Notes under the pieces: model-generated
Databases searched by the model: none
Told to the model about the DNA's origin: nothing
The model's input: only the letters and a program-made list of their open reading frames with translations
Made by a program: the position numbers and the translations under genes
In this document: in pieces, positions 41,323 to 42,839 of the stretch
Numbering within the stretch: position 1 is the first letter of the stretch
Layout: each line of letters opens with the position of its first letter
Origin: Erysipelotrichaceae bacterium
Lineage (GTDB): Bacteria > Bacillota_I > Bacilli_A > Erysipelotrichales > Erysipelotrichaceae
DNA length: 53,560 nucleotides
NCBI GenBank assembly: GCA_022780745.1
Contig: JALEVB010000084.1
Span: forward strand, 1-53,560
Reading direction: 5' to 3'

Positions 41323-41382
41323 GGTGGATAGAAGTTTAATATCCTGTAAACATTTTTATATTTTTGTGTTATATTATTATAG

Positions 41383-41445
41383 CCGATTAGGCCAAGCAGT
41401 TCTAATCTGATATCCTGCTTGTAAAATATTAAAACCAAAGGAGAA
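41383..41445 (+). promoter_or_regulatory. Structured 5' leader with H-type pseudoknot, candidate riboswitch
   Basis: P1 GATTAG (41385-90)/CTAATC (41402-07); pseudoknot CAAGCAG (41393-99)/CTGCTTG (41415-21); SD AAAGGAG downstream; upstream TATTATTATAG -10-like. Confidence 0.5.
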
Positions 41446-41449
41446 AACA

Positions 41450-42175
41450 ATGAAAAATTTAAAATCTTATTTGGAGGAAACAAATATCCTCTTTCGTAAC
41501 ATTCCAGGAATGGTAATGTCCTTTTTCTTTCTAAGCGTAGTATTGATGAATCTTTTAGCTAATAAAGAATTGATTTCTACTACATATTTAGCTTTAGATT
41601 GTGGATTTATGCTAAGCTGGATTTCTTTTTTATGCTTAGATATTGTAACTAAATATTTTGGTGCCAAAGCTGCAAGCAGATTGTCAATTACAGCATTATT
41701 ATTTAATCTATTAGTATGTTTGATCTTTAAAATTGCTTCTATGACACCAGGTATGTGGGCTGCATATTATGATAGTGGTTCTATGGCTGTCAATGATGCT
41801 TTAAATACTACATTTGGTGGTACATGGTATGTACTTTTAGGAAGTAGCATCGCAATGTTAGTTTCATTTTTATTTAATGGCTGGTTAAATGAATTTATTG
41901 GTAAACGTCTACAGAATAATTCATTTAAAGATTTTGCATTAAGATCATATATATCTACAGCACTTGCACAATTTGTTGATAATTTTATCTTTGCAATGCT
42001 GGTTTCATATGTTTTTTTTGGATGGACAATGGTTCAGGTTATCATATGCTCATTAACTGGTGCATTCTTTGAATTATTATGTGAGGTTATCTTAAGCCCT
42101 GTTGGATATCGTATCGTTACAAGATGGGAAAAAGAAAAAGTTGGTAAAGAATATTTAGATCTAATAAGAGGTTAA
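41450..42175 (+). CDS. VUT family queuosine-precursor transporter (YhhQ-like)
   Basis: 'LLANKELIST…DCGFMLSWISFLCLDIVTKYFGAKAASRLS…ALAQFVDNFIFAMLVSYVF…SPVGYRIV'. Confidence 0.85.
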   Translation: MKNLKSYLEETNILFRNIPGMVMSFFFLSVVLMNLLANKELISTTYLALDCGFMLSWISFLCLDIVTKYFGAKAASRLSITALLFNLLVCLIFKIASMTPGMWAAYYDSGSMAVNDALNTTFGGTWYVLLGSSIAMLVSFLFNGWLNEFIGKRLQNNSFKDFALRSYISTALAQFVDNFIFAMLVSYVFFGWTMVQVIICSLTGAFFELLCEVILSPVGYRIVTRWEKEKVGKEYLDLIRG

Positions 42176-42176
42176 T

Positions 42177-42839
42177 ATGTTAATATTAATAACAGGAACA
42201 AGTAGAGGAATAGGAAAAGCTATTGCATTAAGGTTTTTACAAGAAAAACATGACGTTATTGGTTTTGATATTGAAGAAAAAACCATAGATCATGTTAATT
42301 ATGTTCATCATATTGTTGATGTATCATGTCCTAGTGACTTTATTGATAATGTCTATCCTGATATTGTTGTCAATAACGCTGGAGTACAGGATAGTGGCAA
42401 AGATATTGATATTAACCTAAAAGGAGTAATCAATATTACGGAAAAATATGCTTTTGACAACCCTAACATTAAAGCTGTAACGATCATTGGTTCAGCTAGT
42501 GGTCATACTGGTTCTGAATTCTATGAATATGCAGCTAGTAAAGGTGGTTTATTAGCATACACTAAAAATGTTGCTAATAGATTAGCTCCTAAGGCTATTT
42601 GTAATAGTATCGATCCAGGTGGTGTTATTACTGAGCTTAATAAACCAGTAATGGATGATGAAAAGCTATTTGCCAAGATCATGGAATTAACACCTTTAAA
42701 AAGATGGGCAACATGTGAAGAAATAGCTGATTGGGTATACTTTGTTTCGGTTATTAATAAATTTATGACTGGTCAGAATTTACTGATTGATGGTGGAGAA
42801 GCTGGATATAATCAGTTTATTTGGCCTGAAGATTTGTAG
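42177..42839 (+). CDS. SDR family oxidoreductase
   Basis: 'ITGTSRGIGKAIA', 'VVNNAGVQ', 'YAASKGGLLAYTKN'. Confidence 0.93.
   Translation: MLILITGTSRGIGKAIALRFLQEKHDVIGFDIEEKTIDHVNYVHHIVDVSCPSDFIDNVYPDIVVNNAGVQDSGKDIDINLKGVINITEKYAFDNPNIKAVTIIGSASGHTGSEFYEYAASKGGLLAYTKNVANRLAPKAICNSIDPGGVITELNKPVMDDEKLFAKIMELTPLKRWATCEEIADWVYFVSVINKFMTGQNLLIDGGEAGYNQFIWPEDL

Follow-up and report, generated by a model that had tools for sequence, protein, structure and literature searches.

The leader of a putative queuosine-precursor transporter gene in an Erysipelotrichaceae bacterium is probably a preQ1-sensing translational off-switch, a type I preQ1-I riboswitch variant whose loop is enlarged and whose stem bears an added 5' hairpin (P0). 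It was analysed within a 53,560-nucleotide stretch of contig JALEVB010000084.1, hereafter the window. At the sequence level, comparison of homologous leaders showed P0, the main stem P1, a helix between an anti-Shine-Dalgarno (anti-SD) strand and the Shine-Dalgarno (SD) sequence, the association with transporter genes, the queuosine pathway content of the hosts and the resemblance to type I. That the ligand is preQ1, where it would bind and in which direction it would act are suggested by analogy with preQ1-I and by gene content.

The features of the leader and its operon are listed in Table 1. The regulated gene product matched PF02592 in Pfam (91.8 bits) and scored slightly below the cut-off of NCBIfam model TIGR00697 (queuosine precursor transporter; 45.7 for a cut-off of 50.95 bits), a model matched by all eight orthologues in alignment A1; the original prediction of a structured leader before a likely queuosine-precursor transporter was upheld. 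The short-chain dehydrogenase (SDR) gene of the operon is followed by a class B sortase gene. Among the loci examined, at least 45 had an SDR (xLITGTSxGIGxA) 3' of the transporter, including L048, L064, L091 and L113; they range from Bacteroidales and Fibrobacter to Coriobacteriia. In eight Lachnospiraceae-like loci, the SDR is replaced by an amidase (PF01425). Neither enzyme is known to act in queuosine salvage. The leader itself reads TATAGCCGATTAGGC-CAAGCAG-TTCTAATCTGATATC-CTGCTTG-TAAAATATTAAAACCAAA-GGAG-AAAACA-ATG, and the SD predicted behind the linker was recovered (AAAGGAG, 41437-41443, followed by the ATG at 41450). The -10-like element claimed before the knot was not distinguishable from chance, with one match in the consensus scan and 1.2 expected. 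If the candidate promoter is genuine, it could put the RNA 5' end near P0.

Table 1. Coordinates of the transporter leader and operon in the window
Feature	Position	Strand	Remarks
Possible promoter, TAAACA - 17 nt - TATATT with TG	41347..41375	+	consensus scan only
P0 5' hairpin, GCC-GATTA-GGC	41382..41392	+	directly abuts P1
P1 5' strand, CAAGCAG	41393..41399	+	partner 41415-41421; covariation
15-nt loop, TTCTAATCTGATATC	41400..41414	+	group A consensus TTCGGGTCCGATATC
P2 5' strand (anti-SD), UCU	41406..41408	+	partner 41440-41442
P1 3' strand, CTGCTTG	41415..41421	+	covariation with 41393-41399
A-rich third loop, TAAAATATTAAAACCAAA	41422..41439	+	contains AAAACC 41431-41436
Shine-Dalgarno, GGAG	41440..41443	+	GGA = P2 3' strand; covariation
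VUT/YhhQ-family Q-precursor transporter, 241 aa	41450..42175	+	regulated gene; PF02592
Short-chain dehydrogenase (SDR), transporter operon	42177..42839	+	Pfam adh_short_C2; start 1 nt past transporter stop

Relatives of the transporter were collected from related genomes and from a genome collection (548 relatives, 80 of which were kept). A stem-and-tail scan detected an element composed of P1, a loop, the second P1 strand and an A-rich tail in 85 of 106 transporter leaders, falling into three groups. Group A, to which the window belongs, is a 51-nt element with a 7-bp P1, the loop TTCGGGTCCGATATC and an A-rich tail ending in AAAACCAAAGGAG. It precedes orthologous VUT transporters among Lachnospiraceae, Collinsella and other Coriobacteriia, Mogibacterium, Solobacterium, Erysipelotrichaceae-like genomes and others. 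In group B, found among more distant relatives from the window's own class, the loop is either TTCGTGACCATC, whose 12 nt follow the layout of type I preQ1-I, or a 15-nt form, while group C has the loop TTCCTTGCCAAAC and the tail CAAGGAG.

Other leader forms were also encountered. Eight Olsenella-like loci (L047, L071, L072, L079, L082, L086, L209 and L210) carry a shorter-looped form, CAAGCAG-TCCCAGGTAAAAC-CTGCTTG with the tail CCGGGAG, in which the loop TCCC could pair with the SD GGGA in another anti-SD register. A relative with a 16-nt loop (TTCTAGCTCTGTCATC) precedes the same transporter in a Spirochaetales genome (L104:2425-2477; rough E-value of 1.7e-8 with the group A covariance model R1, see below). 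Nine Fibrobacter loci (L088, L091-L096, L099 and L103) have the leader GGAAG-TCTTTGTCTAAC-CTTCC-TTAAAAAACAAA-ATG immediately 5' of the start codon, for which no Rfam match was found; it looks like a preQ1-I knot devoid of an SD, and its TTTGT may pair with the AUG-adjacent ACAAA so that the start codon would be hidden instead. Finally, Holdemanella biformis (L120, genome G495) has a group C leader, TTTTGCTTCCCAAC, and tgt was present in this genome but queA and queH were not over threshold, contrasting with most other carriers; this leader may serve another salvage route, for instance that of queuine.

Secondary structure was evaluated on alignment A3, comprising 33 distinct group A sequences, for P1 and the anti-SD:SD helix (P2; columns 14-16 with 48-50). 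Overall, 99.7% of the cells were paired, with both-side changes at seven pairs in 42 cells; the sequences being kin, these compensatory cells do not amount to independent events. The covariation score was 0.405 versus 0.133 in shuffles, none of 500 shuffles matched either the paired percentage or the score, and slid versions of the pairing dropped to about 51% paired or below. P1 was paired in 100% of cells, with compensatory changes at five of its seven pairs. This stem corresponds to a helix that the original prediction had located correctly and that covariation supported, but it had been labelled as the pseudoknot when it is in fact the main stem. P2 displayed compensatory changes at two of its three pairs (four sequences with UA replaced by CG and three with CG replaced by UA), which trace to no fewer than two lineages, namely L089 (SD GGGG) and L139/L143/L156, in which loop and SD shift register together. 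It is this covariation that implicates the SD in the helix. The loop had been described as not pairing with the SD and the third loop as not A-rich. Both statements turned out to be wrong because the knot had been misassigned, since 41406-41408 pair with 41440-41442, with compensation in homologues, and the true third loop (TAAAATATTAAAACCAAA) is A-rich. Another version of P2, GG(U)/(A)CC (GGU/ACC), was discarded, as compensatory changes were absent, 14 cells were broken and it failed in the window, L207 and L208. Outside the helices, the first T, T, C and the last C of the A3 loop were invariant, the T preceding the last C reached at least 90%, and A39-A42, C43 and C44 of the tail were invariant (AAAACC in the window).

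A hairpin of ever-changing sequence, P0, lies directly 5' of P1. A stem ending at most 2 nt from P1 was present in 72% of group A leaders versus 29% of dinucleotide shuffles; by the same measure it was present in 13% of canonical type I and 9% of group B leaders. Among 60 leaders that differ from one another within P1, the loop, the tail or the 12 nt upstream, 5-bp complementarity between the 5' and 3' halves of their own P0 was found in 18, versus 3.3 when halves were permuted. In the window, P0 has only 3 bp (-3.5 kcal/mol).

The Rfam comparison proposed with the original prediction placed no family over threshold in the window leader, the best, weak match being preQ1-II; preQ1-III (RF02680) gave no match up to an E-value of 10. 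The preQ1-I model RF00522 stayed below its gathering threshold (39 bits) for every group A member tried. This threshold is strict, since canonical type I queT leaders from Lachnospiraceae (L157-L178) also miss it, with about 24-27 bits, and Rfam seems to under-annotate type I preQ1-I in this family. Covariance models, whose E-values are rough, were built from group A (R1) and from type I only (R2). R1 scored 71 bits on the window, which belongs to its training set, and detected canonical type I queT leaders across Lachnospiraceae (E 1.5e-5 to 6e-5). R2 detected 10 of 22 related loci, all correctly placed (E up to about 0.02; group A leaders at 0.001-0.02), and the window itself only with an E-value of 0.44. 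Each model thus detects the other's group, and by profile group A is related to type I preQ1-I, from which it very probably descends. The element was filed as a variant and not as a plain member because the RF00522 threshold was missed and the CUA mark of the tail was only partly kept. The earlier suggestion of a divergent preQ1 sensor is very probably right, with Rfam failing to recognise it, but an undescribed class exceeds the evidence and an undescribed variant fits better.

Type I preQ1-I riboswitches are marked by a UU atop P1, a UC before the P1 3' strand, a conserved tail C (within CUA) and an A-rich third loop (PMC11625349, PMC8752633). The leader had been judged unlike preQ1-I, but once the correct stem is assigned, it displays G-UU atop P1, UC, an A-rich third loop and the tail AAAAC. 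With type I (RF00522; Can, Hin, Ngo), group A shares the H-type pseudoknot, these loop and stem signatures, the conserved tail AC, an SD within P2 and the control of queT/yhhQ-type transporters. In the window, TTC (41400-41402) and TC (41413-41414) match type I positions U6 U7 C8 and U16 C17. The tail C is invariant in A3, and the following base is C instead of U in all 33 sequences, giving CCA where type I has CUA. Group A further differs from type I by its loop of 15 instead of 12 nt, a 7-bp P1, a conserved A-W-A in the second loop, the added P0, a full Watson-Crick anti-SD:SD helix and the lack of any Rfam match over threshold. C8-A12-U32 form the pocket ceiling of the Can structure, in which a pairing of G34 with C10 is assumed. 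Relative to P2 of Can, the anti-SD helix of group A is displaced further down the tail by a few nucleotides, and the pocket, or at least its ceiling, must consequently differ. A relation A10-U32/G10-C32 linking type I and group A was abandoned, as it fits Lachnospiraceae only.

The other preQ1-I types were more distant. Type II (B. subtilis, T. tengcongensis) shares the overall knot and the A-rich loop, but has AC before the P1 3' strand where group A has UC, except in L073 and the shorter-looped Olsenella form. Type III (E. coli yhhQ), which is almost confined to Pseudomonadota, also precedes a yhhQ-family transporter and its loop anti-SD pairs with the SD core, but that loop is shorter and pyrimidine-rich, and AC stands before the P1 3' strand. 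In a neighbouring family, canonical preQ1-I leaders (L024-L043) have TGGCTTCTAACTGT about 50-70 nt downstream, partly complementary to ACTGGTTCGAGAGCCA of the aptamer; these segments are likely to represent the alternative pairing of the switch.

Regulated genes and riboswitch types were found to be exchanged. The group A RNA precedes queT (PF06177) at one locus (L155), whereas at the remaining Lachnospiraceae loci read, queT has the loop TTCGAGACCTTC and the tail AAAACTAAAGGAG, i.e. a type I preQ1-I, sub-threshold with RF00522. Conversely, window-transporter orthologues L127, L134 and L144 have type I leaders (RF00522 22-28 bits, sub-threshold), and the RF00522 match of L126 is sub-threshold as well. 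Among 27 carrier genomes, tgt was detected in 26, queA in 24 and queH in 25. At the profile cut-offs, queC and queG were detected in none of the 27 and queF in one, marginally; these absences do not reflect model failure, because each model exceeds its cut-off in some control genomes. In the window's genome, queH, queA and tgt are adjacent on contig C30. Judged by gene content, a carrier cell could convert imported preQ1 to queuosine but not make preQ1. The gene exchange, the pathway content, the type I sequence marks and the model matches together point to preQ1 as ligand.

We propose that, when preQ1 is plentiful, it would be held on top of P1, beside the UUC and UC nucleotides of the loop and the AAAAC tail. 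Its binding would close the H-type pseudoknot, in which the anti-SD UCC (UCU in the window) pairs with the SD GGA; with the SD core paired, the preQ1 transporter operon would remain untranslated. When preQ1 is scarce, the knot would open and the importer would be made.

A separate preQ1 class, without common descent with preQ1-I and based on a P0-P1-(anti-SD:SD) stack resembling preQ1-II (RF01054) minus P4, is unlikely. P0 is specific to group A, and the loop pairs with the entire SD core, a feature shared with preQ1-II. The latter likewise has a 5' hairpin beside the main stem and an SD buried within the pseudoknot helix; its P1, P2 and P3 form a coaxial stack, and binding does not require P4. 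The best Rfam match of the window was also preQ1-II, but its 22.1 bits (E 0.12) are far under the gathering threshold of 47 bits and it was not repeated in L048. P4 and the preQ1-II consensus loop are lacking as well, and membership of preQ1-II was rejected. Loop and tail bear the signatures of type I, R1 and R2 connect both groups, and the same genes have type I elsewhere. A ligand other than preQ1 is very unlikely, be it preQ0, queuine or another ligand of the transporter/SDR operon. YhhQ relatives are thought to differ in their preference for preQ0, preQ1 or queuine (PMC5372724), and altered loops are able to shift specificity. No role is assigned to the SDR or amidase that is co-transcribed. 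However, QueF, needed to use preQ0, is missing, the presence of QueA and QueH implies that preQ1, not queuine, enters tRNA, and canonical preQ1-I replaces the element before the same genes.

The two remaining alternatives concern the window copy. The P1 originally proposed, GATTAG/CTAATC (41385-41390/41402-41407), does exist as six perfect pairs in the window, but that it forms the correct knot there, as a window-specific fold, is hardly credible. It is complete in one of the 60 distinct leaders, most others having one to four of its six pairs, is absent in L207 and L208 despite their UAAUC/UACUC loops, and gained no support from covariation. The window minimum free energy fold, which cannot show pseudoknots, leaves it unused, and GATTAG partly represents the P0 hairpin loop, given P0 as GCC-GATTA-GGC. 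Decay of the window copy into a non-functional riboswitch seems rather unlikely. Five of the 51 nucleotides of this copy deviate from the most frequent group A sequence, and all five lie in GGGTCC (TAATCT in the window), so that the loop GGG is lost and P2 is left with two Watson-Crick pairs and one wobble. On the other hand, two Coriobacteriia have comparable loops in elements that are otherwise intact (L207, TAATCC; L208, TACTCC), for which reason a template switch or an assembly error was also dropped as the origin of TAATCT. P1, UC, AAAACC and the SD positions are all kept, and the transporter frame is intact. The divergent window copy presumably still works.

A 2024 review lists five preQ1 motifs, none of which describes the group A element (PMC11625349). 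The literature searched gave no description of it either, although the type I set of the 2014 study that introduced the three preQ1-I subtypes may already contain some of these sequences. It is possible, although we advance it only tentatively, that group A constitutes a sixth preQ1 motif, widespread and found mainly in preQ1-importing gut anaerobes, in which P0, P1 and P2 (anti-SD:SD) would stack, the loop is enlarged and preQ1 would be held in a distinct manner. As a type I variant, it would add a coherent unannotated subtype, spanning two bacterial phyla common in animal guts, to one of the smallest riboswitch families. The ordinary type I leaders of the same transporters in sister lineages raise the question of how a small aptamer evolves while keeping its ligand, through loop enlargement, gain of a stacking hairpin and a tighter grip on the Shine-Dalgarno sequence. 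Such a switch would also place preQ1 import under regulation in organisms unable to make preQ1.
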